Positions 28,168 through 49,410 of a stretch of DNA of 64,000 nucleotides are shown in pieces. The DNA is taken from positions 8,798,425-8,862,424 of the forward strand of contig NZ_JAQNDM010000002.1 in the NCBI RefSeq assembly GCF_028368975.1. The letters are read 5' to 3'. Under the pieces are notes generated by a model. The model was not told the DNA's origin. It searched no databases and was given only the letters and a program-made list of their open reading frames with translations. The DNA is from Stigmatella ashevillena. GTDB taxonomy: Bacteria; Myxococcota; Myxococcia; Myxococcales; Myxococcaceae. Both the position numbers and the translations under genes were made by a program. Numbering within the stretch: the first letter of the stretch is position 1; every line of letters starts with the position of its first letter.

Positions 28168-28327
28168 GAACACGTGCCAGGGGGGACGTGACAGGTAGGC
28201 TCGGATTTTCGCCCGCTCGCTCGAACGACATCGAATGACCTGGGGGGTAGTTCACTTTCGTCCAATCCTGCGGGTAATATTCCCCTGCGTCGCGTTGGCG
28301 TGGTGCCGCGCGAGCGGAGGGACGAAC

Positions 28328-30401: not shown

Positions 30402-31124
30402 CCGAGTAGTACTAACTAGGTAGCATTAGGGGCCTACCTGGGAGGCTTGCTGGTGCGGCGGCTGGGCGGGACGTGGGGGCCGCGGCAGAAGATGGAAGAG
30501 TCCCAGGTGCGCGTTGGCAAGCGCGTCTGGCTTCCCTTCCTCCGCGCTCGCAGGTACATGCAGTCCCGCCAGTCGCTGCTGGACTACTCGCTCACCCCGT
30601 TTTCCGGGAGGTGGAGCGGCATCGCTCCTGATGAGAGGGACACTGCCCGCCTGAACACTAAGCCAGCCGGAGTAAGTTTCGTCAGGAGCGACCACCGCTG
30701 AGGCTAAGAAATCGAGCCTCGGCGCGGCTACCCCCTGAACGGAATTACTTCGCTTGGCTTAGGCCGTGTTGACTGGCGTTCGCGGCGCAGTGGTGCTTGA
30801 ACGAGGAGTCCGGCGTCTGCGAGGCCGAGTTGCTGAAACTTGGCGCTGCCGTCGGCACGAGGGACGCGGCATGTCCGGCGCCTTGTCGCCGACCGCACCG
30901 TCACAGCGTGGAAGCGCGGGCCCACGCACACCCAGGGCACACACCTCGTTGACCCGTTGATACTGGCGCGGGATTTCCAAGACGGAGTCTTGGCGCTTAA
31001 GGCCGCCGACGGCGCCGGGCCCATGGCTGAGCGCCCCCTCCAAGCGTCGGTCGGCGTCGGGACGTGGGCCGACTAGCGGCGGGCGCGGGGTTGCGTCCGC
31101 TAGTCGCCTGAAAATCCACGGGAT
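30402..31124. other. gap with IS end and no supported gene
   Basis: It contains the IS701-like right end, then GC-rich sequence with chance open frames. An 84-codon plus-strand frame from 30447 (VGKRVWLPFLRARRYMQSRQ) might be a relic but shows no recognised domain. The border between this debris and the defence operon appears to lie at about 31.1 kb. Confidence 0.45.
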
Positions 31125-31167: not shown

Positions 31168-31509
31168 ATGAGCAATAGTCTGCACCCAATAGAGACGAGC
31201 GAGACGCATAGTTACGATGTGCAACCTGTACATCCGAGCAGCATGATGCCGATCGAGATCGAAGGCGTTGAGTACTTCACCGCGACGGACATCCAGCGGG
31301 ATGTCGGCGTCGTTCGGCAGACGTTGTGGCGGTGGCGAAGGGCCCGGGTCATTCCGCAGGGGCTGCGCTACCGGAACAAGGCGATCGTCTTCACGCGCGC
31401 GGAGGTGGACATCATTCGCGAGTACTCGAACCGTCTCGAGCCCGCGGACTCGCCCCCGCTTCGTCGACAAGGCGGCGCCCCAACTGCGGCGCCGAAGGGG
31501 GTCGCATGA
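31168..31509 (+). CDS. MerR-like HTH regulator of the defence operon
   Basis: A 113-residue protein with a winged-helix core: EYFTATDIQRDVGVVRQTLW then RWRRARVIPQGLRYRNKAIV and FTRAEVDIIREYSNRL. This resembles the DNA-binding part of MerR/excisionase proteins without a sensor domain. It is first in the operon, 34 bases ahead of the GHKL gene, and probably controls expression of the system. A role as recombination directionality factor is possible but less likely without an adjacent integrase. Confidence 0.75.
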   Translation: MSNSLHPIETSETHSYDVQPVHPSSMMPIEIEGVEYFTATDIQRDVGVVRQTLWRWRRARVIPQGLRYRNKAIVFTRAEVDIIREYSNRLEPADSPPLRRQGGAPTAAPKGVA

Positions 31510-31543
31510 TGCCACTGAAGGTCTCGGGGCAGCGAGTGGCGCT

Positions 31544-33148
31544 ATGACGAAGGCAGCACACGAAACGAGACGCGAGGACTGCTCGATCATCGCGCTGGAT
31601 AAGTTCATCCAAGCGACGCGGGACTCGGGCTACAAGGGCACCGCCAGCGCCATCTCGGAACTCGTCGACAACTCGATCCAGGCGGGCGCGACGCGCATCG
31701 CGCTCTCCGTCGAGGCCAAAGCCAGCGACGACGAGGAGAAGGCGATCGAGATCTCCGTGCTCGACAACGGCTGCGGGATGGACCCAACGACGTTGCGCCA
31801 AGCGCTCCGCTTCGGTGGCAGCACCCGCTTCGGTGATCGTCGAGGGCTCGGCCGGTACGGCATGGGGCTCCCGAACGCGTCGCTGAGCCAGGCGCGTCGG
31901 GTCACCGTCTGCACGTGGCAGCCCGGCGCGACGAACGGCAAAAGCAGAGCGCCGCGCGGACGCCTTGTGTCACCGTGCGTGCACTCGTCCTACCTGGACG
32001 TCGACGAGATCGTGCGCGGAGAGATGGTGGAGGTCCCTGCGCCCGAAATCGTGAAGGCGCCGTCGTCCTCGTGCACCGGGAACTCCGGCACCCTCGTTTG
32101 CTGGTCGCAGTGTGACAGGCTCGACAACCGGCGCGTTTCAACGATCGTGCGAAAGCTCGAGGTGGAACTCGGGCGGCGGTTTCGGCACTTCATCTGGAAG
32201 GGCCTCCACATCACGGTCAACGGGGACACGCTGGAGGCGTTCGACCCGCTCTACCTCAACCCGGAGGCCGAGATTTCGGGCGCACAACTCTTCGGCGAGG
32301 AGATGCGCTTCGAGGTCCGCGCCGACCCGGTCGACTCACGGAAGACGGGGTGGGTGCGGGTCCGGTTCACGGAACTGCCCGTCCACGCGTGGCACAAACT
32401 CTCCAACGAGGAGAAGCGTCGCATCGGACTGTCTAAAGGCGCTGGCGTCTCCATCGTGCGCGGCGGTCGCGAGGTGGACTACGGCTGGTTCTTCATGGGG
32501 AGCAAGCATCGCGAGAACTACGACGACTGGTGGCGCTGCGAGATCCAGTTCGATCCCATCCTTGATGAGGCGTTCGGCATCACCCACACCAAGCAGCAGG
32601 CTCGGCCGCAGGCGCACCTCATGGAGGCGCTCACGCCGGACTTGGAGGCGACCGCGCGCGCGCTCAGCGGCCGCGCGCGCAAGGCGCACATGGCAGTGAA
32701 GGCGAGCGAGCGATTCTCCGAGGCGGAGCGCATCGCCAACGAGCGTGACCACCTCCTTCGTCCGTTGCCTCGCAGCGCCGATCCTACGGCCAAGGCCTTG
32801 ATGCGGGAGTTGGCAGCGAGCCACCCGGAACTGCGCGAGCGCGCCGATGAGAAGGACCGGTACAGCATTATCGAGCATGCCGTGAAGGACACGTCGTTCT
32901 TCACCCTCGCGCACGATGGGGACCGGCTCGTCCTCGTGCTCAACCCTGACCACCCCTTTTATCGAGAGATCTACAAACCCCTGTCCGAGGGGGAGGCTCC
33001 GCTAGATCCACAGCTCCGCGCGAAGCTTGAACTGCTCCTCCTCGCGGCGGCGCGCAGTGAGGCGGCCATGCGCGGAAAGGTCCCCGCGCTCGCGAAACAT
33101 CGGCTCGATTGGAGTAATACCTTGGCCGCGTTCCTGAACGACAAATGA
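31544..33148 (+). CDS. GHKL ATPase (MORC/HSP90-like) of the defence operon
   Basis: A 534-residue protein with all three Bergerat ATP-binding motifs: ISELVDNSIQ (Glu39, Asn43), LDNGCGMD (74-80), and GRYGMGLPNAS (from about 103). The rest resembles a transducer domain with a conserved Lys-containing loop and helical C-terminus (SFFTLAHDGDRLVLVLNPDH). MORC/MutL-like GHKL ATPases are known partners of restriction-type systems, where they may form DNA clamps. It overlaps the DruA-like start by ATGA. Its inclusion here suggests ATP-gated DNA loading. The exact subfamily is not fixed. Confidence 0.85.
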   Translation: MTKAAHETRREDCSIIALDKFIQATRDSGYKGTASAISELVDNSIQAGATRIALSVEAKASDDEEKAIEISVLDNGCGMDPTTLRQALRFGGSTRFGDRRGLGRYGMGLPNASLSQARRVTVCTWQPGATNGKSRAPRGRLVSPCVHSSYLDVDEIVRGEMVEVPAPEIVKAPSSSCTGNSGTLVCWSQCDRLDNRRVSTIVRKLEVELGRRFRHFIWKGLHITVNGDTLEAFDPLYLNPEAEISGAQLFGEEMRFEVRADPVDSRKTGWVRVRFTELPVHAWHKLSNEEKRRIGLSKGAGVSIVRGGREVDYGWFFMGSKHRENYDDWWRCEIQFDPILDEAFGITHTKQQARPQAHLMEALTPDLEATARALSGRARKAHMAVKASERFSEAERIANERDHLLRPLPRSADPTAKALMRELAASHPELRERADEKDRYSIIEHAVKDTSFFTLAHDGDRLVLVLNPDHPFYREIYKPLSEGEAPLDPQLRAKLELLLLAAARSEAAMRGKVPALAKHRLDWSNTLAAFLNDK

Positions 33149-35175
33149 CCAACGCGCCCGACACGTCCTGGACCACGCTAGAGCCGGCGCTCCCGAGCAA
33201 GGTGTCGCGAGATGCATTCGTGGAGCACACGCGCGCACTCGCGAAGGTGCGTAGGGATGAGCGCGCCGACGAGGTCCTCGATAAGGTCCGTGCCGAGTTC
33301 GTCGCGGAGGTCAAGGCGTCGCGCCGCGCTGACCGGCAGGCGCTGCTCGCCGCCGGGCTCGTGGTGTGCGACCTCGCGACGCAAGGGTGGCTCATTCGAG
33401 TGCGCGGCGAACGCGTCGAGATCAGGCCCCCGGAGCCTGTCGCTGACAGGGCCGCCGAGAAGGCGCGCATCCGTCGACAGGAGTTGGTCAAACGCAACGC
33501 GCAGCTCCGACAATCGTCGGTCCAGCGCTTCTTGGACTCGATGGAGCGACAACGGCTCCACAACGGGGCGTACGTTTCGATCTACTCGCTCATGCGGGAC
33601 GGACGCGAACTCGCGGAGGGACTTCGGGAGGCGCGCACGCACCTCAACAACGGGTGGGCCGACGTGCTCTCCAACCTGGTCGAGCCATACCTTCAGTTCG
33701 TCACCGAGGAGGCCGCCACGTGCGCGTACACCGGGCTGCGCCTCATGGACGTCTGGCGTTATTTCCGCCACACGTGGACGAACCAGCACACGAGCGTGCC
33801 CGGACGGACGATGCTGTTCCTCGTCCGCGACCGCGCTGCCGCTAACCATCCGGTGATGGGGATTGGCGCGCTGAGCAGCCCCATCATGCAGATCCGTGAG
33901 CGGGACTCGTGGATCGGGTGGCACCCCGACACCTTCCTTGAGCGCGTACGCCGAGAGCCGACGCGAAACCTCGCGAAATGGCTCGTGGACACCCTCGACG
34001 CGGCCATCGACGAGATCTACGTCGCGGATCTACTCGAGGACAAAGTCCTCTCGACGCGTGACCTCACCGCCCCGTCCGACGACGCGCTCGACCGGCTCTT
34101 CAATGAGGGAGCGGAGCAGCGTCGGCTGCACCATCGCTACGCGCGCACACGGGACCTCAAGCGACGCCGCGCCGACCTCTCGGGGGACGAGTACTGGGTC
34201 GCGCAGGCTCGAACGCACCTGTTCCGCAGCAAGCGCGCGCTCGCGCTCGCGACGTTCCTGCGTGCGCGCGCGGTCCTGAACGAGGCGTTCCAAGGCAAGC
34301 CGACGGCGGCGAAACTCGCTGCGCTGGCCGCGACGGGCTACGGCAGCGACGCGATCCGCAGGGTGCTCAAGAAGGCGAAGGCCGATCGCGTCGGCATCGC
34401 GGTCGCGGACATCTCCGTGTGCGGTGCCGTGCAGCCCTACAACGCGCTGCTCGGCGGCAAGCTCACTGCGATGTTGGCGGCGAGCCCGGAGGTCGTGCAC
34501 CAGTACCGTCGTCGCTACGCGGGCGCGGAGAGCGAGATCGCGTCCTCCGTCGCGGGGCGGCCCATTGTCCGCGCGTCGAAGCTAGTGCTCCTCGGCACGA
34601 CGTCGCTCTACGGCGTCGGGTCGAGCCAGTACAACCGCATCAAGATCCCCGCCAACCGCCTCGGCGGCGCCGACAAAGACGTCATCCGCTACGAGGAGTT
34701 GGGGCGCTCCGAGGCATTCGGCACGTCACACTACTCAGAGGAGACCGTCGACGCGCTCGTCGATCTCGTGCAGCAGTCCGACGCGCAGCGGGTGAACAGC
34801 ATCTTCGGGGAGGGCGCCAGCCCCAAACTGCGCAAGGTGAGGCAGGCACTCGAGTTGCTGAGCCTGCCCGCTGGCATGCTCCTGAATCACCACCGCCCGC
34901 GCATCGTCTACGCGGTGAGCTTGATCAGGAACCTCGCTGACTACCTAATCGGCCTCGCTAGGCAGCCGGACTACATCATCCCCGCAGACGCGGCTGCCTC
35001 TACTGCTGCGATTGGTGCGTGGTGGCGGGAGCGGTGGCTCAGGCACCGGATTACCTCCGACCAAGCGCTTGAGGAGGTCGCGCGGCACACGCGGGTGCAT
35101 CCGGTCACCCACGGCGCGCGCGTGCCGCACCAACGCGCGTCGACCCAGCAGCCTATGTTCACCGAACACTCATGA
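33145..35175 (+). CDS. druA: DruA-like DUF4338 protein
   Basis: A 676-residue protein. The middle and C-terminal parts match what I know of DUF4338 (DruA): TMLFLVRDRAAANHPVMGIG then SPIMQIRERDSWIGW, and later VCGAVQPYNALLGGKLTAML, AGRPIVRASKLVLLGTTSLY, GVGSSQYNRIKIPA. The N-terminal 190 residues are an added helical region (LAKVRRDERADEVLDKV; RQSSVQRFLDSMERQRLH), making it longer than the roughly 400-residue DruA of the described type I system. DruA is required for Druantia defence; its activity is unsettled. Overlaps of four bases on both sides show tight coupling. The family call is by motif memory, not search. Confidence 0.7.
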   Translation: MTNAPDTSWTTLEPALPSKVSRDAFVEHTRALAKVRRDERADEVLDKVRAEFVAEVKASRRADRQALLAAGLVVCDLATQGWLIRVRGERVEIRPPEPVADRAAEKARIRRQELVKRNAQLRQSSVQRFLDSMERQRLHNGAYVSIYSLMRDGRELAEGLREARTHLNNGWADVLSNLVEPYLQFVTEEAATCAYTGLRLMDVWRYFRHTWTNQHTSVPGRTMLFLVRDRAAANHPVMGIGALSSPIMQIRERDSWIGWHPDTFLERVRREPTRNLAKWLVDTLDAAIDEIYVADLLEDKVLSTRDLTAPSDDALDRLFNEGAEQRRLHHRYARTRDLKRRRADLSGDEYWVAQARTHLFRSKRALALATFLRARAVLNEAFQGKPTAAKLAALAATGYGSDAIRRVLKKAKADRVGIAVADISVCGAVQPYNALLGGKLTAMLAASPEVVHQYRRRYAGAESEIASSVAGRPIVRASKLVLLGTTSLYGVGSSQYNRIKIPANRLGGADKDVIRYEELGRSEAFGTSHYSEETVDALVDLVQQSDAQRVNSIFGEGASPKLRKVRQALELLSLPAGMLLNHHRPRIVYAVSLIRNLADYLIGLARQPDYIIPADAAASTAAIGAWWRERWLRHRITSDQALEEVARHTRVHPVTHGARVPHQRASTQQPMFTEHS

Positions 35176-36215
35176 GTCCCAAGAAGCCCGCGCGGCCTCG
35201 CGCAACTCAAGTCGCTGCGACGAAGGCGGTGGTGCGGTGGTACCTCGACCAGCACTTCCGCCAGGCTTCTGACCCAGGCGTGGTCGAGATGTTCTGCGAG
35301 CCCTCGCGCGTCGGCTCATTCGCCATTGATCGTCACGCGTTGCGCGCAGGGGATGGCCGAGCGCTCTTTCGCCTCCTCGTCGCGACCGCGATGTTTCAGC
35401 GCCGACAGGACGTGCAGATCCTCCGCATCTTGCAGGGGATGGGCGCGTCGGATGCGGCCGAGATCTCCGACGCAGCAAAGCTCCTTGCGCTAGTCGACGA
35501 TAGCGACTGCGCGAACATGCGCACGACGCAGGCCCTCGCGGAGGCGTGTAATCTCGACAAGGATCCACAGACGCGCGAGGGATGTTGTAGCGCAAACCCG
35601 AGCGTCAGCTGTCACCTCAAGCGACACACTGTCCTCCTCAAGCGCTACGGCCATTTCGGGAAGGTGCCGACGTCGATCGCACTGATGGTCAGAGAGTCTG
35701 GCGCGGAGGACCTCGCCGGTTTGCACCGACTCGTGATGCAGAGAGAGCGAGACCCGCTGGCGCGCGCTCAAGCGCTTGAGCGCGAACTCTCTCGCGCTTG
35801 GCGAGTAAGCCAGAAGATCGCGAGCATGTTCCTGTCCATGGTTACGAACCCAGACCTCTCGCGAGGCCTCGCGCCGTGGTCACAAGGCATCGACTCGACC
35901 TACTACGTTGTCATCGACAGCAACGTCGACCTCTTCCTTGCGACGATCGGGTACAAGGGGACCGGGACTTATGATGCCCGCCGCGACTTCGTCCGCGCAC
36001 TCGCGCGAGGCATCGACCTGACCGAGTTCGACGGCGCGCTGCAGCCCTACAACCCGCGCTTGGTCCAGCAGGCGATGTACCTGTTTATGAGCATCGCCAA
36101 CCGCCGCGCAGCGACGGCTGACTGCATGCACCTCGCCCCGGCTCCGTGCGCTACCTGCCCAAGCGCTGTCCGACGCCGGTGTCCCGCAGGACCGGGGCTA
36201 CCTGCGAGCCGGTAG
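35172..36215 (+). CDS. HhH DNA glycosylase / endonuclease III-like protein
   Basis: A 347-residue protein. The second half has the endonuclease III/MutY plan: a helical HhH-like region (RAWRVSQKIASMFLSMVTN), then YYVVIDSNVDLFLATIGYKG, where VIDSNV stands at the place of the catalytic VDTHV aspartate. It ends with four cysteines, Cys-x7-Cys-x2-Cys-x7-Cys (CMHLAPAPCATCPSAVRRRC), like the iron-sulfur loop of that family but with wider spacing. It could excise bases or nick at modified or damaged DNA. It lies between DruA- and DruB-position genes, which is not part of canonical Druantia. Activity is inference. Confidence 0.65.
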   Translation: MSPKKPARPRATQVAATKAVVRWYLDQHFRQASDPGVVEMFCEPSRVGSFAIDRHALRAGDGRALFRLLVATAMFQRRQDVQILRILQGMGASDAAEISDAAKLLALVDDSDCANMRTTQALAEACNLDKDPQTREGCCSANPSVSCHLKRHTVLLKRYGHFGKVPTSIALMVRESGAEDLAGLHRLVMQRERDPLARAQALERELSRAWRVSQKIASMFLSMVTNPDLSRGLAPWSQGIDSTYYVVIDSNVDLFLATIGYKGTGTYDARRDFVRALARGIDLTEFDGALQPYNPRLVQQAMYLFMSIANRRAATADCMHLAPAPCATCPSAVRRRCPAGPGLPASR

Positions 36216-36360
36216 CCCTCGAATGTACCTCGTCCTACTTTCCCTGCTGTGGCATCGTGGAATACGATGTCGGAAGGGCTTTTTGGCTTGGCGCCGAACT
36301 GGAATTATTGGCGCTGACTATGATGGGTAGTTCGAGGGTGTCTAACGCGACCGGGGATGC

Positions 36361-37998
36361 GTGGACTACGCAAGGGATCTGCACAGTAGAAGAATCATCG
36401 CGGCGGAAGATGCCGTGTCGGCGCAATTTTACGAGTGTCCTTGCCCCGGCTGCAGTGGTCACGTCTTTCTTCGTGATGGAGGCAACCGACGAGCGCACTT
36501 TGCCCACCGCGCCGGTGAAGGCACTCGTGCATGTGACGAGTATTTCCCCGGTATTGGAGGTGGCGGTGAGAGTGTTGCGCGGCGTTTCTCCGAAGTCGAG
36601 GGTGACCCGTCGGAACTAGGCTTACTGCTCACCCAATTCGATGGTTGCTGGGGTTTGGGGCTTCGCCTACCGGAGATTCCAAGCAACGAGTTGGGGGAGA
36701 CGTCGCTCGGAGCGCTACGTTCGTCGTTCGTGGACGTCTACGCGGGGGGCGACCAACTGCTTCGAGTTAGTGCCCTGGATCTACGCCCTGGCGTAGGCGC
36801 AGCGCGCGTTGACGTGGTGCCGAGCCTTCAGGCGTTCCGAACGCAACCGGCTGGTTTGTGGCCGGCCTCAGTGGACAAAGAGCGGTGGTCCCTTGAGTCC
36901 CGAGGGCTCGACGCCAAGGGCGCGTTGTTTCGCCTCCGCCGCGGAGAGTGGACGAGGCTCCTCGCTAACTCTGGAGTGCACCACGGTGAGGCGCTCCTCG
37001 TTCTCGCCGACGGACGCAGTACTCCACCGCGATCGATCGTGTTGGAGAGCAATGTGCTGGTTGCTAGCGGTGGCTTGCAGTGGACCCTCTGGGAAGTGCG
37101 ACTCCCAGGCGAGCCCGTCGCGCCCGTGCTCGCGTGGCTTGCCCGGCTTGGGCATGGGTTCATCCCTCGTCCGTGGAGCGTGGGTCTTGCGACACCGCCC
37201 CGGGCTTATAGTGATCGAAACGAGCCGATCTTCTGGACCGGCGATGCGCCGGTGCTGATGTTTGACGCGCCCCAGCCTGGCTCTGCCACGATGGTCGCCT
37301 TTAAGAGCGGCACCAACTCCCACAGCGCCAGTGTGCAAGCCACCGAGGGCAGCATCGTCCTCGTCAGTGTTCGTGCACGAGATGCTGGTCTTGCTCGGCT
37401 ATGCGTCGCGGGCGAGCAGAGCGCCAACGTCGACCTCGCGTACATCCAGCGTCCATCGGTGAGTGCGCTCCGCGAGTTGCTGGGGCAGACCGCGCGACTT
37501 CGTATTCAGATCGGCCAGCAGCAGATCGAGGCATGGCAGAACTCCACTCACAACATTCGCCTGCTTGTGCGTGAGCAGCCGGAGGTACGTGTCGACCTGG
37601 GAGACGAAACCGCACGTGCACGTGTGACGGTGTGGGGGCGAGGCAAGCATCGTTCTCGACGTGGACTCGATTGGAAAGGGGTGTCGCGCGCGGTCGAGGA
37701 CGCACTTGCAGGCGCTGAGCGCTTGGAGATCGATGCTGGCAATCTCGGGCGAGTTGTCATTCTCATCCTCCGTGTATCCGAAGAGACCATCCGTCGGGGC
37801 GAGTCCAGCGACCGCCTCACATGGCACGATCATATTGTGAGCATGGGCGAACTCGCCGAGAAGGGCTGCACGCCGGCCATCCTTAAGCTCCCACGACAGG
37901 CCGATTCATTCGTCCCACGTCAGGTTTCGCCGGCAGTGCTCGTCCGCTCGCGGATGGCGCTCCGGCGGCGAGTCGAGGCTGAAGGACGTCGCTCATGA
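36361..37998 (+). CDS. DruB-position protein with CoiA-like N-terminus
   Basis: A 545-residue protein. The N-terminus (ARDLHSRRIIAAEDAVSAQF, CPCPGCSGHVFLRDGGNRRA, HFAH) has a Cys/His cluster at residues 26-49 as in the zinc region of CoiA-like proteins. The remainder is beta-rich and unrecognised (LFRLRRGEWTRLLANSG; TVWGRGKHRSRRGLDWKG). Size and position agree with DruB of type I Druantia (about 550 residues). The only sizeable intergenic gap in the operon, 145 bp, precedes it, and the start is a GTG. It is coupled to the next gene. Confidence 0.6.
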   Translation: MDYARDLHSRRIIAAEDAVSAQFYECPCPGCSGHVFLRDGGNRRAHFAHRAGEGTRACDEYFPGIGGGGESVARRFSEVEGDPSELGLLLTQFDGCWGLGLRLPEIPSNELGETSLGALRSSFVDVYAGGDQLLRVSALDLRPGVGAARVDVVPSLQAFRTQPAGLWPASVDKERWSLESRGLDAKGALFRLRRGEWTRLLANSGVHHGEALLVLADGRSTPPRSIVLESNVLVASGGLQWTLWEVRLPGEPVAPVLAWLARLGHGFIPRPWSVGLATPPRAYSDRNEPIFWTGDAPVLMFDAPQPGSATMVAFKSGTNSHSASVQATEGSIVLVSVRARDAGLARLCVAGEQSANVDLAYIQRPSVSALRELLGQTARLRIQIGQQQIEAWQNSTHNIRLLVREQPEVRVDLGDETARARVTVWGRGKHRSRRGLDWKGVSRAVEDALAGAERLEIDAGNLGRVVILILRVSEETIRRGESSDRLTWHDHIVSMGELAEKGCTPAILKLPRQADSFVPRQVSPAVLVRSRMALRRRVEAEGRRS

Positions 37999-40052
37999 AG
38001 GTGCTGGGGCTCGTTCAATGGACCGAGCGCGACAAGCGTGGCAGCCCAATCGCTGGCGTACGCCCGCTCGTCGAGATCCAGAAAGGCGAATGGCGAACGA
38101 TCGAAGCTCTCGAAGAGTTCCCGTCACGGGGCCAAGTCTTCTGGCCCAACGCGCAGGTAGCCACCGAGAACTCACTGGTCATTTTTCACGCAGAGTCGAA
38201 CGCTGGCCAGAAGGATGAGTTTAGAGTCGTCGACCCGAAGCTAGTGTACGAAGTGCTCGACCTCCGACGGTACGGAACCGCAACGGAGGTCCGTGCAGCG
38301 CTCATCGAGGGCATTCGCTTGCCAGTACAATTCGGAGCCGCGCGAGCGCTGGTCTGGTGCAAACCGGATCTGCTGGTTGGACCCGTTGAGTTGAACCGAG
38401 TAGCGAGTGGAACGGTAAGGTTGGTCGGGACCAACTTACACCGTCTCGCGGCATACAAGGGCGCCCAAGTTCGATCGGTGCCTGTCGATCATGCGGAGCG
38501 ATTGCTGCGCGTGGATGACACCGCGCCTTCGAGCTACGTCGATTGGGACGACGATGCGATCGTCTTACGTCGTGCTCTTGAGTCCGCAGTTCGGGTTGCG
38601 AAGCAGGCAGGGCACGACACCGGGCAGACGAAGAAGCAGATCGAAGATGCCGCCCGGGCGCTGGCAGCACAGGGTGGTCCCGATGCGCTGCTGGATCGCT
38701 ATCGGCTCGAAAGAGCGCTGACGTTGCTCGAGAACACCGACGTGGTCGTGCGCAGCGCTGGTGAACTCGCGGAGTCGCTGCGAGAGCATCCAACTGTCAA
38801 AGCGTCGCTCGACGAGTTCAGCGTGAAGGTTCGCACCGAGGTTGAACAGCGCGCCCGTGCAGATCTTGAGCAGGGACTCGCAGTGGAGCGGGCCGCGCTG
38901 GGGGAAACAACTGAGGCGCTCGCTCAGACAAAGTTGCTGCTGGAGACGAGAGCGCAGGAGTTGCACAAAGCCGAGGAGCTTCTCGCTGAGGTTCAAAGCC
39001 TAACGGCCAAGACTGCCAAGGCTGCTGAGGCGGCGGTGGACGCGCGTGTGCTCGCTGCGTTGGAGCGCCCTTTGGAACTCCTCGCTGAGGTCAGTGTGTT
39101 GCGCCCATTCTTGGGAGCAGGAGGGAGTCGCGCTGAGAGCGCGACGAATGCTCCAGCGTCATCACCCGCTGCTTCTCCACAGCTAGACTGGGCACGCGCT
39201 CGCGGTGAAGTGGCTAAGGACGTGAAGTCGCTCCGTAGTTCGCTTAGCAGAGCGGCCCGCACCCACAGGTTTCAAGGTGAGCCGTTGTCAATGCTGCTTC
39301 AGATTCATGCCGCCATCGCCGCTGGCCTAATGCCCATCACCTTGGGGCCCAGCGCCCTCGCGGCTCTCACCGCTTACGCGCACGGCGCCTGCGGCGGGCG
39401 GTTGCACATCGTCCACGTCTCCCCCAGTGCCATCCACGCCCATGACTTTGACTATGCGCCTAGGGGCGGCATCGTAGTCGCTGCCGCGGCCGCGAAGGAT
39501 ATCGATGGCATCTCGCTCGTCGTCCTCGAGGGCGCGAATCGATCGCCGCTTGAGGCGTCCGTAGTACCCCTCCTTCAACTGGCCGATGTTGGACTCTCCC
39601 CGGTGGCCAACGCGCCCGGCCTTCGGTTGGCTGCCTCGTTGGTGGTCGGCGCGACGACCGTGCCCGTCACACCACAGCTTTGGAGCCACGCCGTCGCGAT
39701 TCATCCCGGGCCGAGCGCACCCGCGACGCAGGGCGCCACCTTGGGGGATGCCCCTCGGTCGAGCGAACTCTTCGCGCTTGGCGATGAGCCGAAGGGCGCT
39801 ATCGATGCCTTGCTTGACGCTTGGCCTGATTGCCACGAGCTACGTCCGGCAATGAGCCGTTTCGGCGCGGCGCTGACCCAACTCTACGACGAGGAGGACC
39901 GCATCTCCGATGCTCTGCGCAGTGGTCTGGTTCTTCCATATATCGCGACGGCGCTTTCCCCCGAAGAGCAAGCTGAGGCGTTGGCCAACGCGGGAGATGG
40001 CGATGGGGCCCTCGCGTTGGCCCTGCGTGGGCTCCGAAGGAGGCTCGCCTAG
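37995..40052 (+). CDS. DruC-position protein with coiled coil and degenerate AAA-like domain
   Basis: A 685-residue protein. Residues about 200-365 form a long coiled coil (ARADLEQGLAVERAALGETT; ARAQELHKAEELLAEVQSL). The C-terminal third resembles a McrB-like AAA ATPase that has lost its P-loop: PITLGPSALAALTAYAHG (about 445-462) stands where GPxGxGKT is expected, and ISLVVLEGANRSPLEASVVP (about 505-524) resembles a Walker B plus sensor. It is probably structural. Size and order fit DruC (about 640 residues). The AAA relation is my inference from pattern. Confidence 0.6.
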   Translation: MKVLGLVQWTERDKRGSPIAGVRPLVEIQKGEWRTIEALEEFPSRGQVFWPNAQVATENSLVIFHAESNAGQKDEFRVVDPKLVYEVLDLRRYGTATEVRAALIEGIRLPVQFGAARALVWCKPDLLVGPVELNRVASGTVRLVGTNLHRLAAYKGAQVRSVPVDHAERLLRVDDTAPSSYVDWDDDAIVLRRALESAVRVAKQAGHDTGQTKKQIEDAARALAAQGGPDALLDRYRLERALTLLENTDVVVRSAGELAESLREHPTVKASLDEFSVKVRTEVEQRARADLEQGLAVERAALGETTEALAQTKLLLETRAQELHKAEELLAEVQSLTAKTAKAAEAAVDARVLAALERPLELLAEVSVLRPFLGAGGSRAESATNAPASSPAASPQLDWARARGEVAKDVKSLRSSLSRAARTHRFQGEPLSMLLQIHAAIAAGLMPITLGPSALAALTAYAHGACGGRLHIVHVSPSAIHAHDFDYAPRGGIVVAAAAAKDIDGISLVVLEGANRSPLEASVVPLLQLADVGLSPVANAPGLRLAASLVVGATTVPVTPQLWSHAVAIHPGPSAPATQGATLGDAPRSSELFALGDEPKGAIDALLDAWPDCHELRPAMSRFGAALTQLYDEEDRISDALRSGLVLPYIATALSPEEQAEALANAGDGDGALALALRGLRRRLA

Positions 40053-41095: not shown

Positions 41096-44000
41096 GCCAG
41101 CAAGTCGAACTTGGTGTCAACGAAGTCGCGCAGCGAATTCACCTGCGCTTGCGCAGATACCTCGAAGCGCAGTACCACATTCGGAACTCCGCCCTCATTG
41201 AAGAGCGAAGGATTCTCCTTGAGGAGCCGGGCGGAATCTCCCAGCGACCGTTCATCGAGGTCACGCCGTCGTACGCAGTAACTGGGAGCTTCTCAGGCCT
41301 GACCGCGCCCAATCTGGTCACCGGGCTCTTGCAGGAGTTGGTCAGTTGGAAGCCGGGGATTGGTGTCTACCCTCCGTACCGCCATCAAGCTGATGCTCTT
41401 GAGCACTTCTTTGCGAAGGGGGCGCAGAGCGATGACCTCGTAGTCGCTACGGGCACTGGCTCCGGCAAGACGGAGACGTTCCTCTACGCCATCCTCGGCG
41501 CCCTGGCGCTCGAGGGAACAGAACGCCGCGAGTCGTTCGCACGCCACGGCGTGCGCGCCTTGCTCTTGTACCCGATGAACGCGCTCGTCAGCGATCAGAC
41601 CGCGCGTCTGCGTAGGCTCCTAGGCGATGAGCGATTGGCAAGCCTAATGGAGGAGCGCTGGGGACGGCGCGCGCGGTTCGGTATGTACACGAGCCGAACG
41701 CCGTACCCAGGCGTGCGTAAGGGCGCGAAGGACAAACGTCACCTCGACAGGCTCGTTGGGTATTACGAACAGCTTGAGACTTCGACGAAGCCAGAAGAGC
41801 GAGACCTCGTCGCCGAACTCAAGAAGCGTGGACGCTGGCCCGCCAAGGATATCGTCGCATTCTACGCCCGAGCTCTTGAGGAGAAGGCCCTCGTAAAGAG
41901 CGGAAAGCGCGCCGGGAAAGAGAATACGCTCCACCACTGGGGCGCGCGTTTCCTGACACAGCCTGGAGATCGTGAACTCCTCACTCGGCACGAGATGCAG
42001 GAGCAGGCTCCTGACCTCCTCATCACCAACTACTCGATGCTCGAGTACATGCTGCTCAGGCCCATCGAGCGGCCGCTGTTCGATCAGACGCGCGCGTGGC
42101 TCGCCGCCGACCCGAGGAACCAGTTCCACCTGATCCTCGACGAGGCGCACATGTACCGTGGCGTTGGAGGCGCGGAGGTCGGACTTCTGATTCGCCGGCT
42201 CCTCTCTCGCCTCGGTGTTGGTCGTGATCGCTTGCGCTGCATCCTCACGACCGCCAGCCTCCCTGACCAAGGTACCGCAGCGGATGAGGCCGCGAAGAAG
42301 TTCGCGCGTGATCTGACCGGCGAAACCGGCAAGAGGACCTTCGCGATTGTTCGCGGTACGCGCGAGAAGCGCTCCGGGGCGCGGCCTGGGACTCCCGATG
42401 AGGCGAGCGCGCTCGCGGCCGTCAACCCGGCTGCCCTAGCGGCTGCAGGGTTCGCGCCCGACGAGGCGAATGCGTCACTTGCCCGCGTCGCAGCGCGCAT
42501 TGGCTGGGCGACTCCTCCCACGATCGTGGAGAAAGGAGACTCGGCGACACTGGCGACACGCCAGTACATTTGTCGGTCGCTCACAGGTTTTGGCCCGCTC
42601 GAACTGCTCTTGGAGCACGCGTCGGGAAACGCGACTGACTTCGCAGTGCTGGCCCAAACGCTCTTCCCTGGCAGTTCGCTCGGCGAAGCAGAACGTGCCA
42701 CTGACGGACTCCTCGCGCTCGGCACATTCGCGCGGCGCACTGAGCCGGGGCGGAACGAGCAGCCGCTCCTCCCAACGCGCGTCCATGTGCTCTTTCGCGG
42801 GTTGCCGCCGCTCTATTCGTGTATCAATCCGAACTGCTCCGCGCGTCGTAACGGAACTGGGACTACGCTCCTGGGTCGTCTGTACACGGAGCCACGCACG
42901 CAGTGTGAGTGCGGTGGGCGCGTATTCGAACTGCTCACCCACCGCGATTGTGGCGCGGCCTACCTACGCGCGTTCGCGTCGGCGGACTTCCTCTGGCACG
43001 AACGAGGCGGGAAGCTGACGGAGTTCGGCAGGCCCCTTCATGAACTGCACCTGTTCCTCGAAGAGCCTCACCCGGAGCAGAGAGGCGCTGTCGAACCTCT
43101 GCTGCTCGACGTCCAAACTGGCCGCGTTCTCGGCACCGCGAGCGCGACGACTGGTGGAACACGCCTCTGCTACCGCGCTCACGTGGCGGCCGTAAAGGTC
43201 ACTAACACGACGACGTTCAGCGTGTGTCCTGCCTGCACGCGACCGACGCAGTCAAATGGCTCCCTGAAGATCATGGATCTCGCGACGAAGGGTGAGCAGC
43301 CTTTCGCCAATCTCGTGAGAGAACAGTTTGTTTCGCAACTTGCGACCAAGGGACCGAGTGAGCAACACCCGAACGAAGGTCGCAAGGCGCTCCTTTTTAG
43401 TGACGGTAGGCAGAAAGCTGCTCGACTTGCGCGCGATCTACCGCGAGAGGTGGAGCGCGACTCGTTCCGCGAGGCGCTGGTCCTCGCTTGCCAAGAGCTC
43501 GCGCAACTTTCCACGCCTCAGCCAGCGATCCTCGATGAGACCATGTATGCGGCGTTCGTCGCCGTGTGCGCGCGCCACCACCTCCACTTTTTTGACGGGC
43601 GCGACCAGGACAAACTCCTCGAAGAGTGCAGGCAGTTCCGTAAGGACTTCGACGACCTTGATACCGCCCTCGCAGATAAGTGGCGTCCCACACCGCCGAC
43701 ACGTTTCCGCACTGCGCTGGTCCGCCAAATAGGCGACCCCTATTACTCGCTCGTTGCAGCCTGCGCGGCGGTGGTTGAAGCGGCGCCGGCGACTCTCCGT
43801 AAGTTGCAGAAGCGGCTCACCAGCGTCGGCACATCATCGATGCTCGATGAGGTCGCGAACGCGTGGCTCCGTGAGATGTTCCGTATGTATGCGTTTGATC
43901 CCGCCCTCGGGAAGGACGCACGCCTCGACGAGTTTGGCTTCTTTCAGCCTGTCCGTGCTGCTGACGGGCTGAAGAAGTTCTTCGAACTTATCCGTGTGCG

Positions 44001-47000
44001 GACCGGACTCAGTGTTGCCGATGTTGAGCGACTCCGAGACGAACTCTTCGAGGTCTTCACCCGGGAGGCCTCCGCTGGCGACGACTCCGGTCGCCTCGTC
44101 ATGACCGATAGCATCGTGATGCGCCTCGCGCTCGACGAAGAATGGTTGCAGTGCACAGTCTGTGGCCACCTTCAGTTGAAGCCGTTCTTGGGTGTCTGCG
44201 GGAACTGCCAGGACAAGCGCCTTGAGAAGCGCCCACCCGAGCACGAGTACATGCGTTCGCGGAAGGGTTTCTTCCGTGAGCCACTACGCGCGGTCCTCCA
44301 AGGAGCGCGGCCGGTGCACATCACGGCTGAAGAGCACACCGCTCAACTCTCCCAGCGCGACGCTGGTGATGTCTACGCGACCACAGAGGAGTTCGAACTC
44401 CGTTTCCAAGACGTCCCGCTCGGCCCCGACAAGCCACCCGTCGATATCCTGAGCTGCACGACGACGATGGAGGTCGGCATCGATATCGGATCGCTGACTG
44501 CAGTCGGCCTTCGAACGGTTCCGCCCCAACGTGAAAATTATCAACAGCGCGCCGGTCGCGCGGGTCGTAGAGGTACGTCGGTCTCGTCCGTCCTCATGTT
44601 CGCGCAAGGGGGGGCGCATGATGCCCATTACTTCGCCAATCCACAGGCGATCATCAGCGGGCCGCCGCGCGAGCCGCGCCTGAAGGCTGATAACCCGCGC
44701 CTAGCGCGGCGGCATGTCAACTCGCACCTGCTTCAGACTTTCTTCCATTCGCGCCTGGACTCGCTCTCGGCTGAGCATCAAGCGGAGATCGCTAAACACC
44801 GACCCGGCATCATGAGCGCGCTCGGCGATGCAAAGGAGTTCTTCGAAGGAACGGCCGAGTTCTCGTTCGGGGAATTCGAGCAGTGGATGAAGAGGGAGGT
44901 GCTCACCCCGAAGAGCGCCATCGTCGAAGAGGTAGCTGGCTGGCTCCCGGCGGCGATCTTCAAGACTGATGGGGCCGACGAGAAGCGGAAGTTCGTACGC
45001 GAGATTGCCGACACGCTGCTTCACACTCTCACTCAGCTACGCGATGGGCGCCTCGGCGCGTCGAGCGGTGAGGCTGTACCCAGCGAAGAGGATGCGAACG
45101 ACGACGATACTGGAGGGCTCCTGGACCTCTGCTTCGAACGCGGGCTTCTGCCGTCCTATGCGTTCCCGACAGACCTGTGCAGCTTTGTAATTCAGGAATG
45201 GGACAAGAGCACCTTACAGTGGCGAATCAAGGTCGCCGAACGGCCACAACTCGCGAAGGCGCAAGCGCTGAGCGAGTATGCGCCAGGGCGCCTCTTGGTC
45301 GTGAACAAGCAGACCTATCGTGTCGGCGGCGTCTTCGTCGACGGGCCGCCGTCTGCAACTCCGGCGGCAGCGCTGTTTGCGCAGCCGCTCAACCGCTACG
45401 TAGGCTGTCCGCAGTGCTCCTACATCTCGATCGAGGGTGGGAGGGCTTCGGCCCGTACGGTCGAAGGCTCGCCATGCCCGGTGTGTCGCACGCCGCTCTT
45501 CGTACGCGAGTACCTGGACCCGCCGGGGTTTTCGCCAGAGGAGGGGTGTGCGCTGCGCGAGGGTGATCGCGAGCAGGACGTCACCTACGCTTCGTCAGCC
45601 CAACTCCCCGAGATCGCCAGTCGCGACGAGTTCGACTGGAGGGATGGCCCCGGGGTCAACTTCAGCCACGCGTACGGAGAAGACATCCTGTTGGTCGTCG
45701 CGAACAAAGGGAAGGACGCGGCAGGCTTCAGCGTATGCGAGAGCTGTGGCGGCGCGTGGATCGACGGCGAGGAGCCGGACGGTTCTCATCCGCGTCCGTT
45801 CCTTGTTCCGAGGCACATTCTCGAACGCGATGGCGTAGGTAGAGCTTGCAACGGTGAGGTGCGGCGCGGTTTGTTCTTAGTGCACGACTTCCGAACCGAC
45901 CTGCTACTGCTGCGCGGCGCGTTCCGTCAGCCGTTGGACTTTCAGCCGAAGCAGCCTTGGCTCTACGACGCGCTCGCGACGCTGGCTGAGGCGCTCGCGC
46001 TTGGTGCCAGCCTCCATCTCGACATCGACCCGGGTGAGCTCTCGGCGGGGTTCCGCCTGCTACCGGCGCTCATGGATGGTGACCAAGGAGTGGCCGAACT
46101 GTACCTCTTCGACACCGCCTCTGGCGGCGCGGGCTATGCGGCCGATGCTGGCGAACAACTGCAGCAGGTCCTCGACCGGACGGAACAGCTTCTCCGCGTG
46201 TGCCAAGGAAATTGCGAGCGCTCGTGCACGAAGTGCCTGCGGCACTACGGCAATCGCTTTCTGCACGGGCGCCTCGACCGTCGACTCGCGTTCCAATTGC
46301 TGCGGTACTTTCGCGCGGGAGAGATCCCGCCCTTTGCATCTGCGGCCGAGCAGATCCGAAAGCTGCGTCCGCTCGCCCGCTTCCTCGAAATGGAGGGGTG
46401 GACCACAGTAACGGACCCGAGCGGTGCCCTGCGCTGCGAAGGACCTCGCTCGATGACGGTGGGCATCTATCCCGCGTTCCTCGCGAACGATGCCGCCGAG
46501 ATGACGCACCCGACTGTCGCTCCCAGCGATGCCCGGCGCGTCATCTTGCCGGACTACCTCGTGGAGCACGATCTGCCCTCCGCATACCAGCGCGCTACGG
46601 GCCTCACGAGGCCGAGCACATCTGCGCCTCGTCCTACGGCTCCGACTTCGTCGACGGGACGTATCGTCGAACTCTCGGTAAAGGACCTGCGAAAAGCGGA
46701 CGATGACAAGACTCACGGCAAGGTCCGGGTGCTAATCGACGTCGCCCTTGCTGCGGGTGCGTTCGCCGTACGCGTCCCCAGCCCAGGTCTCAAGAACGTC
46801 GGGTTTGGTGCAGGTGGGTGGCTCGTTGTTCGTCCCGTCTCGCCTAGTGACCTCGGCTCTGACGCGTGGCTAGTTGTTCTTCGACCGCGTGGGAAGTTCG
46901 GGGCCACTGGCTCGGTCTGGACAGTCGCGCACGTGAAGGAGTTGTTGAGCTATGAGGGGGCACCGTCGCGGCTGCAAGTCTCGTACGGCAGCGCCACGGG

Positions 47001-47085
47001 CAAGGAGTACCGCCCTGAGCGACTTGACCGCACTGAGGTCACGCTCGCTGCGACGATCGTGTGCCACGCCGACGAGGCAACATAG
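41092..47085 (+). CDS. druE: DruE-like giant SF2 helicase with DUF1998 domain
   Basis: A 1997-residue protein. The helicase core has Walker A VVATGTGSGKTETF (about 118-131), the DEAH box LILDEAHMYRGVGG (about 346-359) and motif VI YQQRAGRAGRRG (about 1150-1161). Several zinc-ribbon-like segments are spread through it (CINPNCSA, CECGG, CTVCGHLQL, CGNCQ, CPQCSY, CPVCRT). The C-terminal Cys cluster CQGNCERSCTKCLRHYGNRF is typical of DUF1998/MrfA-like helicases. Size, domain order and final position in the A-E block match DruE (about 2000 residues). It probably translocates on or unwinds invading DNA. Confidence 0.85.
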   Translation: MSQQVELGVNEVAQRIHLRLRRYLEAQYHIRNSALIEERRILLEEPGGISQRPFIEVTPSYAVTGSFSGLTAPNLVTGLLQELVSWKPGIGVYPPYRHQADALEHFFAKGAQSDDLVVATGTGSGKTETFLYAILGALALEGTERRESFARHGVRALLLYPMNALVSDQTARLRRLLGDERLASLMEERWGRRARFGMYTSRTPYPGVRKGAKDKRHLDRLVGYYEQLETSTKPEERDLVAELKKRGRWPAKDIVAFYARALEEKALVKSGKRAGKENTLHHWGARFLTQPGDRELLTRHEMQEQAPDLLITNYSMLEYMLLRPIERPLFDQTRAWLAADPRNQFHLILDEAHMYRGVGGAEVGLLIRRLLSRLGVGRDRLRCILTTASLPDQGTAADEAAKKFARDLTGETGKRTFAIVRGTREKRSGARPGTPDEASALAAVNPAALAAAGFAPDEANASLARVAARIGWATPPTIVEKGDSATLATRQYICRSLTGFGPLELLLEHASGNATDFAVLAQTLFPGSSLGEAERATDGLLALGTFARRTEPGRNEQPLLPTRVHVLFRGLPPLYSCINPNCSARRNGTGTTLLGRLYTEPRTQCECGGRVFELLTHRDCGAAYLRAFASADFLWHERGGKLTEFGRPLHELHLFLEEPHPEQRGAVEPLLLDVQTGRVLGTASATTGGTRLCYRAHVAAVKVTNTTTFSVCPACTRPTQSNGSLKIMDLATKGEQPFANLVREQFVSQLATKGPSEQHPNEGRKALLFSDGRQKAARLARDLPREVERDSFREALVLACQELAQLSTPQPAILDETMYAAFVAVCARHHLHFFDGRDQDKLLEECRQFRKDFDDLDTALADKWRPTPPTRFRTALVRQIGDPYYSLVAACAAVVEAAPATLRKLQKRLTSVGTSSMLDEVANAWLREMFRMYAFDPALGKDARLDEFGFFQPVRAADGLKKFFELIRVRTGLSVADVERLRDELFEVFTREASAGDDSGRLVMTDSIVMRLALDEEWLQCTVCGHLQLKPFLGVCGNCQDKRLEKRPPEHEYMRSRKGFFREPLRAVLQGARPVHITAEEHTAQLSQRDAGDVYATTEEFELRFQDVPLGPDKPPVDILSCTTTMEVGIDIGSLTAVGLRTVPPQRENYQQRAGRAGRRGTSVSSVLMFAQGGAHDAHYFANPQAIISGPPREPRLKADNPRLARRHVNSHLLQTFFHSRLDSLSAEHQAEIAKHRPGIMSALGDAKEFFEGTAEFSFGEFEQWMKREVLTPKSAIVEEVAGWLPAAIFKTDGADEKRKFVREIADTLLHTLTQLRDGRLGASSGEAVPSEEDANDDDTGGLLDLCFERGLLPSYAFPTDLCSFVIQEWDKSTLQWRIKVAERPQLAKAQALSEYAPGRLLVVNKQTYRVGGVFVDGPPSATPAAALFAQPLNRYVGCPQCSYISIEGGRASARTVEGSPCPVCRTPLFVREYLDPPGFSPEEGCALREGDREQDVTYASSAQLPEIASRDEFDWRDGPGVNFSHAYGEDILLVVANKGKDAAGFSVCESCGGAWIDGEEPDGSHPRPFLVPRHILERDGVGRACNGEVRRGLFLVHDFRTDLLLLRGAFRQPLDFQPKQPWLYDALATLAEALALGASLHLDIDPGELSAGFRLLPALMDGDQGVAELYLFDTASGGAGYAADAGEQLQQVLDRTEQLLRVCQGNCERSCTKCLRHYGNRFLHGRLDRRLAFQLLRYFRAGEIPPFASAAEQIRKLRPLARFLEMEGWTTVTDPSGALRCEGPRSMTVGIYPAFLANDAAEMTHPTVAPSDARRVILPDYLVEHDLPSAYQRATGLTRPSTSAPRPTAPTSSTGRIVELSVKDLRKADDDKTHGKVRVLIDVALAAGAFAVRVPSPGLKNVGFGAGGWLVVRPVSPSDLGSDAWLVVLRPRGKFGATGSVWTVAHVKELLSYEGAPSRLQVSYGSATGKEYRPERLDRTEVTLAATIVCHADEAT

Positions 47086-48830
47086 TGGCGCGCTTCATCC
47101 CTGAGATAGCATCGACGGACATCGTCCACGACTCTGAGCGAGTAGTCTATGAGGCGCTGCGCGGTCTCCCGACGGGCTTTGTAGTTCTCCACTCGTTCCC
47201 CTGGCTCCGTCCCACGCGTGATCTTGCGGGCGAGCCACTCCGCGAGGGCGAGGCGGACTTCGTCATCCTCCACCCGGAGCGCGGTCTATTGGTCCTTGAG
47301 GTGAAGGGGGGCAAGCCGGAACTGACAGGGCGCACGTGGTCTCGCGGCGGGAAGGAGTTGCGTGACCCGTTCGACCAAGCTCGGAAGAGTCGCTATGCGC
47401 TCCTTGACGCGATCGAGGAGCGCACGCGTAAGCGCGTCCACCGCGGAATCTTTGCTCATGGTGACGTTGTCGTGTTCCCGCACGCTCGGTTCTCGGGGAC
47501 ACTACCCGTCAACAGTGATCCTCACATCCTCGTTGATGCATCAAGCCTTCCGATGCTCCCTGCGAGGATCGAGGAGGCGTTCACTGCATGGGCGCGGAGC
47601 GAAACGCACCTGACTCCAAGCCAGTTCACAGAGCTTCTTGATGCCCTGATGCCGAAGCTGAGGTTGATGCGCTGCGCAGGGGCGGAGGTCAGCGCGGAGT
47701 ATCATCGCATCGTCCAGATCACTCTCGATCAACGTGCGACCCTGTTGGGGCTCCTCGAGAATGAGCGCGTACTCGTCGAGGGTACGGCGGGTTCTGGGAA
47801 GACACTCCTCTCTCTCGAGTTCGCGCTGACGCGCGCTGACTGTGGTGAGAGTGTCTTGCTCCTCTGCTACAACCGCCACCTTAGCGCATGGCTTCAGGAG
47901 CAAGCCAAGCACGACCCGAGAGCACACCGTGCTGGCGCGCTGTTGGAAATCTCGACGTTCCACGCGTGTGCGCGCCGTTTGGCGCAGCGAGCGCGTGTGG
48001 ATTTCGACGTCCCAAGCACCGGCGAGCAGGCATTTTGGGATGAAGACGTCCCGCTCATTATGGAGCAATCACTTGAGGTCCTGCGCGCGCGGGGGCAAGC
48101 AGAGGCCTTTGATGCGATCGTCGTCGACGAAGCGCAGGATTTTGCTCCCGACTGGTGGGTGACGATTGAGTCTTTATCGCGCATAGGACAAGCAGGTCGG
48201 CTTTACGTCTTCCTTGATATGAAGCAGAGCCTGCGTGGCGTGGCGAAGCTCCCACCGGTTCCGCTCCCGGCCCGTTTCCGGCTTACAACGAACTGCAGGA
48301 ACACGAAGGCCATCGCCCGAAGCGGGGCAGCGCTCGCTAGCATCGACATTCGTCTGCTGCCTGGCTCGCCGTCGGGAGAGGCGCCTGCCGTTCGAAGAGC
48401 AGGGACGGCGGTGGCCGAGGCGGGGTTGGTGCTCTCCGAGGTCCGGCAGTTGTTCCTGCAAGGCATCAAGCCGCAGCAACTCGCGCTGATCGGTGCCGCC
48501 TCCCACGCGAAGGGCTCGCTCGTCCGCCACGCAGAGGTGGACGGGATCCCTCTTGTCGACGATGCCGTCGACTGGAGGCGAGGCGCTGGCGTTCTCGTGA
48601 CGACAGCGCGCGCATTCAAGGGACTCGAGGCAGACGTCGTGGTCGTTTATGGTCTCAGCGGGTTCGGCGCGCTCTTCACGCCGACTGACCTCTACGTGGC
48701 ATGGACAAGAGCAAGGCATCGCCTTGTACTCGTTTGCCAGTCCGGCGAGGTGCGCGCGACGGTTGAGGCGGCGCTCTTGGAGGCCGAACGGAGTTCAAGA
48801 ATTGCTGAGGCTGTTAACCGAGGCAGTTAG
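47085..48830 (+). CDS. NERD nuclease-SF1 helicase protein
   Basis: A 581-residue protein. The N-terminus is a NERD nuclease-related domain: GEADFVILHPERGLLVLEVK with Asp58 and the Glu72-x-Lys74 pair. An SF1 UvrD/DUF2075-like helicase follows: Walker A VEGTAGSGKTLLSLEF (about 229-244), IVVDEAQDFAPDWWV (about 344), VTTARAFKGLEADVVVVYGL and LYVAWTRARHRLVLVC. Its GTG start shares one base with the DruE stop, so it is co-translated. It can be read as the nuclease arm of the system; canonical Druantia lacks it. All key motifs appear intact. Confidence 0.85.
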   Translation: MARFIPEIASTDIVHDSERVVYEALRGLPTGFVVLHSFPWLRPTRDLAGEPLREGEADFVILHPERGLLVLEVKGGKPELTGRTWSRGGKELRDPFDQARKSRYALLDAIEERTRKRVHRGIFAHGDVVVFPHARFSGTLPVNSDPHILVDASSLPMLPARIEEAFTAWARSETHLTPSQFTELLDALMPKLRLMRCAGAEVSAEYHRIVQITLDQRATLLGLLENERVLVEGTAGSGKTLLSLEFALTRADCGESVLLLCYNRHLSAWLQEQAKHDPRAHRAGALLEISTFHACARRLAQRARVDFDVPSTGEQAFWDEDVPLIMEQSLEVLRARGQAEAFDAIVVDEAQDFAPDWWVTIESLSRIGQAGRLYVFLDMKQSLRGVAKLPPVPLPARFRLTTNCRNTKAIARSGAALASIDIRLLPGSPSGEAPAVRRAGTAVAEAGLVLSEVRQLFLQGIKPQQLALIGAASHAKGSLVRHAEVDGIPLVDDAVDWRRGAGVLVTTARAFKGLEADVVVVYGLSGFGALFTPTDLYVAWTRARHRLVLVCQSGEVRATVEAALLEAERSSRIAEAVNRGS

Positions 48831-49402: not shown

Positions 49403-49410
49403 TCGTTCAG

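Follow-up and report, generated by a model that had tools for sequence, protein, structure and literature searches.

The stretch of DNA considered here (the window) comprises 64,000 nucleotides of Stigmatella ashevillena (Myxococcaceae; NCBI RefSeq assembly GCF_028368975.1, contig NZ_JAQNDM010000002.1, positions 8,798,425 to 8,862,424 of the forward strand). At window positions 31168-48830 its + strand carries an operon of nine genes which, judged by its matches to protein family models, is a Druantia system of type I. We regard it as a new variant of that type, and in our opinion its most useful point is the pairing of a GHKL ATPase with a long form of DruA, a pairing that is exchanged between different Druantia cores. 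As far as the composition and the modularity of the operon are concerned, we hold this with high confidence.

All nine co-directional open reading frames listed in a first-pass annotation of the window are present, with the positions and sizes given there. They encode, in order, a small helix-turn-helix (HTH) DNA-binding protein of the HTH_17/MerR-like kind (113 amino acids, 31168-31509); a Bergerat-fold, MutL/MORC-like GHKL ATPase (534 amino acids, 31544-33148); the long DruA (DUF4338; 676 amino acids, 33145-35175); a helix-hairpin-helix (HhH) protein of the HhH-GPD, endonuclease III (EndoIII)/Ogg-like kind (347 amino acids, 35172-36215); DruB (545 amino acids, 36361-37998); a protein in the DruC position (685 amino acids, 37995-40052); DruD (347 amino acids, 40052-41095); DruE, a YprA-like superfamily 2 (SF2) helicase with an MZB/DUF1998 domain (1997 amino acids, 41092-47085); and a NERD nuclease fused to a UvrD-like superfamily 1 (SF1) helicase (581 amino acids, 47085-48830). 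The order A-B-C-D-E is indeed kept, with the HhH gene alone inserted between A and B. The annotation had counted seven overlapping junctions, whereas there are six (GHKL/DruA 4 bases, DruA/HhH 4, B/C 4, C/D 1, D/E 4 and E/NERD 1) besides gaps of 34 and 145 bases; it had also placed the start of the GHKL gene inside the HTH gene, which is incorrect, since the GHKL gene begins at 31544, behind the 34-base gap. The 145-base gap (36216-36360) separates the HhH gene from druB, is the sole large gap downstream of the GHKL gene and has the identical length in Corallococcus (L021) and Myxococcus (L022; loci are cited by our own numbers). It is the junction of a GHKL-DruA-HhH cassette and a B-C-D-E core. 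Scans for promoters and terminators at both ends of the operon found nothing; the sigma-70 consensus is a poor guide in this DNA.

The assignment to type I follows from strong matches to the PADLOC models DruA1 (PDLC00001, 654 bits) and DruE1 (PDLC00013, 1872 bits over nearly the whole model) together with weak matches to DruD1 (46 bits) and DruB1 (39 bits, over residues 1-104 alone), so that the type I likeness proposed at first sight holds. PADLOC has two DruA1 models, one of which, with 675 positions, represents the long form. The relations to DUF4338 and DUF1998/MZB, which the first-pass annotation had put up for refutation, were both confirmed by Pfam search (DruA 102 bits; DruE with DEAD, Helicase_C and MZB, the last at 47 bits). 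DruE has Walker A, DEAH and motif VI intact, and the N-terminal part of DruB carries a CoiA_N-like zinc motif (29.3 bits, above the Pfam cut-off). Further, profile comparison with the type I Druantia of the Pseudomonas putida plasmid pKF715A (L138) connects both DruB (E=7e-13) and DruD (E=4e-9) to their counterparts there. Since iteration carried the D profile over to the k4 form, D identities were taken from pairwise BLAST.

The protein in the DruC position has the right place and size for DruC and is assigned by position only; homologues align with it in L021, L022, L045 and L109. It has a central coiled-coil-like stretch and no Walker A, and its C-terminal LVVLEGANR resembles, as a sequence motif, a degenerate form of the McrB motif IDEINR. 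Bell et al., whose name for Druantia I and II is Type IV CoCoNuT, ascribe to both of them inactivated homologues of the McrB-like CnuB (PMC12458937). A profile search of the DruC-position protein against McrB structures gave no match, and a relation to inactivated CnuB is not confirmed by it. A sequence search of PDB sequences with the same protein returned nothing usable, and plasmid searches with the B and C proteins gave no match.

The GHKL protein matches HATPase_c_3 (E=1e-21) and its Bergerat motifs ELVDN, DNGCG and GRYGMG (N, G1 and G2) are intact; all three motifs are found in 77 of 78 relatives. When an alignment of long DruA was scanned across one genome per species (84,980 species), it gave 190 relatives, of which the best 80 were examined. 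These 80 loci belong to eight phyla, with 39 of them in Actinomycetota, and in every one a GHKL gene lies directly upstream of the long DruA gene, which it overlaps in 63. Hence the GHKL gene is not an extra gene; the ATPase constantly accompanies the long form of DruA. Two type I loci with a short DruA, in P. putida and in Nitrosococcus (L131), are without GHKL, and at the haloarchaeal long-DruA locus L005 no GHKL match was found. Two successive GHKL genes precede a long DruA in L103-L107, L091, L099 and L116, with no DruE match in the DNA examined, and these are possible stand-alone systems. As a separate observation, other DruA proteins (L023:9436-19507, L004 and L005) are encoded near HerA/FtsK-type ATPase genes, possibly in DndFGH-like systems.

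The exchange between cores is apparent from the phylogenies. In the DruA tree the window is grouped with L041, L042 and L043, in which a single protein of a family that we call k3 takes the place of DruB and DruC (k3-D-E cores). The DruE tree places it with L045, L109 and P. putida, all of which have B-C-D-E cores. When the DruE data are constrained to the grouping seen in the DruA tree, the log-likelihood falls by 1672, and the approximately unbiased (AU) test rejects the constraint with p = 3e-71. Both trees are quick searches, and their long branches advise caution on deep nodes; where the window falls among its close relatives does not depend on those nodes. This conflict leads us to consider GHKL-DruA, with or without HhH, as a cassette exchanged between cores. 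The comparison with L042 illustrates the point: DruA is 78% and HhH 76% identical to the window proteins, DruE only 37%. Each of the two DruA forms is found with each of the two cores, which makes four combinations. Short DruA accompanies B-C-D-E in P. putida and k3-D-E in Nitrosococcus; GHKL and long DruA accompany B-C-D-E in the window, L045 and L109 (the last in the order C-D-E-GHKL-A) and k3-D-E in most loci. The k3 proteins, of about 960-1050 amino acids (55 genes, including L041:12217-15105), replace DruB and DruC in most long-DruA loci. They have no Pfam or PADLOC match; they show a weak relation to DruB across 164 columns and no relation to the DruC-position protein. A second, recent exchange is indicated by a recombination breakpoint within druB at 37254, seen against Myxococcus qinghaiensis (L022), where the DNA identity is 93.7% to the left and about 74%, where alignable, to the right.

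These data also change how the added genes should be seen. The first-pass annotation had described four extra genes forming one expanded system with the Druantia core. They do belong to the same operon, and their recurrence with the core in other genomes is evident. They do not make up a single new system: GHKL is constant with long DruA, and the HhH, NERD and HTH genes are optional and vary independently. Given this, the replacement of B and C by k3 and the conflicting trees, we prefer to see in the locus one combination of interchangeable modules. The nine-gene order recurs identically in two more Myxococcaceae genomes, Corallococcus (L021/L140) and Myxococcus (L022), and the full set was found in three genomes only, all Myxococcaceae.

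The AlphaFold2 (AF2) model of DruA, made from an alignment that excluded the sequences of a plasmid collection, has a predicted local distance difference test (pLDDT) of 89.8 and a predicted template modelling score (pTM) of 0.88. When it was aligned with VIA-align, the top 22 rows were GNAT-type acyltransferases, with Z up to 8.5 and, for the best rows, a root-mean-square deviation (rmsd) of 2.9-4 Å; the predicted GNAT-like core is split by a helical insertion at about residues 250-415. Foldseek found nothing for this model in PDB (E above 0.5), and a search of PDB sequences with the DruA sequence gave nothing usable. Iyer et al. 2024 independently assign DUF4338 to GNAT (PMC10853773). Our literature search found no paper combining Druantia, acetyltransferase and GNAT. 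The predicted fold is also matched by two giant-virus models in BFVD, A0A3G4ZXG3 and A0A5K0UAJ3 (Faunusvirus and Yasminevirus; Foldseek E 1e-8 and 7e-7); a search of phage records with DruA gave no match.

The HhH protein has no HMM (hidden Markov model) match in the libraries scanned; a search of PDB sequences with it gave nothing usable and a plasmid search no match. Its AF2 model (pLDDT 89) shows the EndoIII/Ogg fold, and the protein is a putative glycosylase/lyase-like enzyme. In VIA-align the model fits MjOgg with Z 13.5 (3.0 Å over 189 residues) and an EndoIII-DNA complex with Z 13.2. Helical folds may give Z values of about 13; here the top rows throughout are HhH-GPD enzymes and the related DUF2419 proteins, and one superfamily occupies nearly the whole list. 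Foldseek gives MutY with probability 1.00 but E 0.008. Among 18 homologues K215, D249 and the cysteines C318, C326, C329 and C337 are invariant; they correspond to the catalytic Lys and Asp and to the 4Fe-4S cysteine cluster of EndoIII-like enzymes. The spacing of the four cysteines (x7, x2, x7) differs from that of E. coli EndoIII, and the residues were equated by motif and not by superposition. Nine of the 80 loci have the gene directly downstream of DruA; they belong to Myxococcota, Pseudomonadota and Acidobacteriota. Outside Druantia, relatives are found beside BrxL (L030), beside DUF499/DUF1156 methylase/subtilase genes (L028) and beside an SMC-like ATPase (L029). The HhH-GPD protein is thus a recurrent accessory of defence-type operons.

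In the last protein of the operon the NERD domain scores 35 bits (Pfam), and the motifs ADF...LEVK, GTAGSGKT and DEAQ are intact. The NERD-helicase gene adjoins DruE in L003, L022, L139 and Corallococcus and lies on the DruE strand in L048, L049, L050 and L051. A long DruE is followed, on its own strand, by a gene of a PD-(D/E)xK nuclease family in 24 loci; such a nuclease is frequent at this place in Actinomycetes. Eight loci, mostly of Streptomyces (L055, L057, L059, L062, L065, L069 and L071 among them), have the candidate defence protein PDC-M02B downstream of DruE instead of that nuclease. The HTH protein, with a sub-threshold match to Pfam HTH_17 (18.5 bits against a cut-off of 27) and a weak one to PADLOC mad1, was seen in the closest relatives only (L021/L046, L022/L039 and L044); it is lineage-specific and a probable regulator.

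In relatives at 94-95% DNA identity the reading frames stay open. Against Corallococcus (L021), dN/dS is 0.07 for GHKL, 0.19 for DruA, 0.12 for HhH, 0.43 for B, 0.26 for both C and D, 0.12 for E and 0.32 for HTH, so all eight genes compared are under purifying selection (0.07-0.43), GHKL having the lowest and B the highest value. For NERD the value is 0.12, from the comparison with L022. It follows that the genes of the operon are very probably functional. The open frames and the recurrence of the nine-gene order also show that the arrangement is more than a chance one.

Among known systems, P. putida pKF715A has the same A-B-C-D-E order as the window and homologous DruB, DruD and DruE (DruE 42.5% identical). 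There, however, DruA has 409 amino acids and GHKL, HhH and NERD are lacking, whereas in the window the DruA of 676 amino acids is preceded by GHKL and followed by HhH, and the NERD-helicase comes after DruE. Nitrosococcus pNWAT01 (L131) shares the order DruA-DruD-DruE but has a single k3 protein of 955 amino acids in place of B and C, a short DruA and no GHKL. Paracoccus (L003), Leisingera (L139) and L047-L051 share GHKL, long DruA, DruE and the NERD-helicase with the window; in them, k3 and an SNF2 helicase, on the strand opposite to DruE, replace B and C, and their DruE falls in another branch. The MORC/paraMORC operons of Iyer et al. 2008 (PMC2292703) likewise encode a GHKL ATPase together with an SF2 helicase and nucleases, but their helicases are Rad25-like, SNF2 or equipped with a different C-terminal domain, and DUF1998 is unmentioned there. 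Finally, ARMADA, TALON and DISARM (PMC12458937) have the YprA-like SF2 helicase in common with the window, and TALON a NERD nuclease as well. No methylase, BrxHII helicase, TPR, CSD or TBP match was found by Pfam among the nine proteins, and DruE1 is by far the best model for DruE, on which grounds TALON was rejected. The MZA system was rejected too, as the MzaB equivalog scores 76.5 bits against a cut-off of 850.

The operon lies at a variable site. A tRNA-Asn gene on the - strand (49410-49483) marks its right boundary, since in relatives within the genus the DNA to the right of this gene is collinear and the DNA to the left differs. Upstream of the operon are a DUF2924 gene and a large serine recombinase (22410-24891), with a similar recombinase stretch left of tRNA-Asn in L137, and two genes for protein-kinase-domain proteins (26425-29464). 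At 30423-30631 lies what remains, with about 86% DNA identity, of the 3' end of a gene for 444 amino acids. Corallococcus has the intact gene upstream of its copy of the operon (L021:2779-4113), Myxococcus (L039) has a relative there, and the gene is also matched near the tRNA-Asn site of the genus relative L133.

How such a system would act is a more speculative matter, and our literature search yielded no account of how type I Druantia works. Wu et al. 2026 consider DruE the sole shared component of Druantia and its DNA-processing core, with partner proteins setting activation (PMC13192584), and GHKL paraMORCs act with SF2 helicases in restriction operons (PMC2292703). We propose that DruB, C and D would recognise an infection-specific structure or a phage protein and load the DruE translocase onto phage DNA; we take these three as the phage-facing part because they evolve fastest. 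By analogy to MutL and MORC, the GHKL ATPase may form a clamp which, together with DruA and its GNAT-like fold, would couple recognition to commitment. The C-terminal nuclease of type I DruE is predicted to be inactive (Bell et al. 2025, PMC12458937), and this could be compensated in trans by neighbouring nucleases, here the NERD-helicase and in Actinomycetes the PD-(D/E)xK protein. The HhH enzyme might incise at bases or abasic sites, so that NERD and HhH would supply the strand cutting. The sensing by B-C-D, the clamp, an acyltransferase role of DruA and this division of labour among nucleases are all inferred. We consider the mechanism as proposed tentative, and somewhat more apt to fail than to hold; the whole picture, composition and mechanism jointly, of a type I operon in which the short DruA was replaced by a GHKL-long DruA cassette and to which HhH and NERD were added, stands at about even chances.

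Several points weigh against this picture. The GNAT match of the DruA model is borderline (Z 8.5, rmsd 3.9 Å, and no Foldseek match in PDB), and the catalytic role of HhH is putative. The DruC-position protein has neither an HMM match nor a profile match to the P. putida protein in that position. The inactive DruE nuclease is a prediction from the literature (PMC12458937), and the anti-phage activity of the operon itself is predicted. Moreover, L091 and L103-L107 have GHKL but no DruE in the DNA examined, and the GHKL-DruA pair may therefore act without it.

A different explanation is that GHKL-DruA-HhH and B-C-D-E-NERD are two independent systems brought next to each other by island shuffling and without joint function. 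The 145-base gap between HhH and B, the conflict of the DruA and DruE trees, the breakpoint within B and the GHKL-GHKL-DruA loci without DruE (L103-L107) would all fit it, as would a Roseivivax plasmid in which DruE is not near GHKL-DruA and the order C-D-E-GHKL-A in L109. Against it, D-E lies within 10 kb of GHKL-DruA in most of the 80 loci; type I systems include a DUF4338 protein, and the DruA of this operon gives the only DUF4338 match in the genome; and the swap concerns exactly the DruA slot, which is filled either by short DruA on its own or by the GHKL-long DruA pair, each of them with both types of core. In our opinion, two unconnected systems are rather unlikely. One could also argue that this is an ordinary type I Druantia in which A-E alone matter, with GHKL, HhH and NERD as accessory passengers that add little, since the PADLOC models for type I already match A, B, D and E and many relatives are without HTH and HhH. 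The presence of GHKL in all 80 loci, its dN/dS being the lowest among the genes compared, and the low value for NERD speak against passengers, and we find this explanation distinctly improbable.

There is, besides, an explanation by discrimination of modified DNA, in which DruA would mark or alter bases and HhH would excise wrongly marked ones. Mom, a DNA-modifying enzyme, is the comparison for a GNAT-like DruA. The fold predicted for DruA, the assignment of DUF4338 to GNAT (PMC10853773), the glycosylase fold encoded directly downstream and the occurrence of HhH homologues next to genes for DNA methylases or of BREX type (L028, L030) are in its favour. Most DruA loci are without HhH, however, the operon has no gene of a known base-modification pathway, and for GNAT co-effectors protein targets have been suggested (PMC10853773), so we think it very improbable. 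A broader version of our own reading is a long shot. In it GHKL-DruA would be a conserved sensor and commitment module for defence systems of a wide class, one that can pass from one DruE core to another and can also act where DruE is lacking. Joined by HhH, it would form a discriminating device for base editing or base excision, with the GNAT-like DruA altering and HhH excising, and this device would feed DruE and NERD. If true, such a GHKL-DruA-HhH device would be a mechanism not described for any Druantia.

What the exchange of the GHKL-long DruA cassette means for Druantia can be stated more simply. DruA comes in two forms, one of them with a constant GHKL partner, and both have been swapped between two kinds of DruE core; our literature search among open papers found none treating Druantia and GHKL together. 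Annotation by PADLOC labels A, B, D and E only, and the remaining parts of the operon are therefore overlooked by it. An EndoIII-like enzyme, as far as its predicted fold tells, has been brought into Druantia. Taken together, the proposal offers a testable division of labour, in which DruE would be the shared engine, GHKL-DruA or short DruA the exchangeable part, and nucleases would be plugged in after DruE; it is also a candidate answer to the question of how DNA could be destroyed by a system whose DruE nuclease is reportedly inactive.

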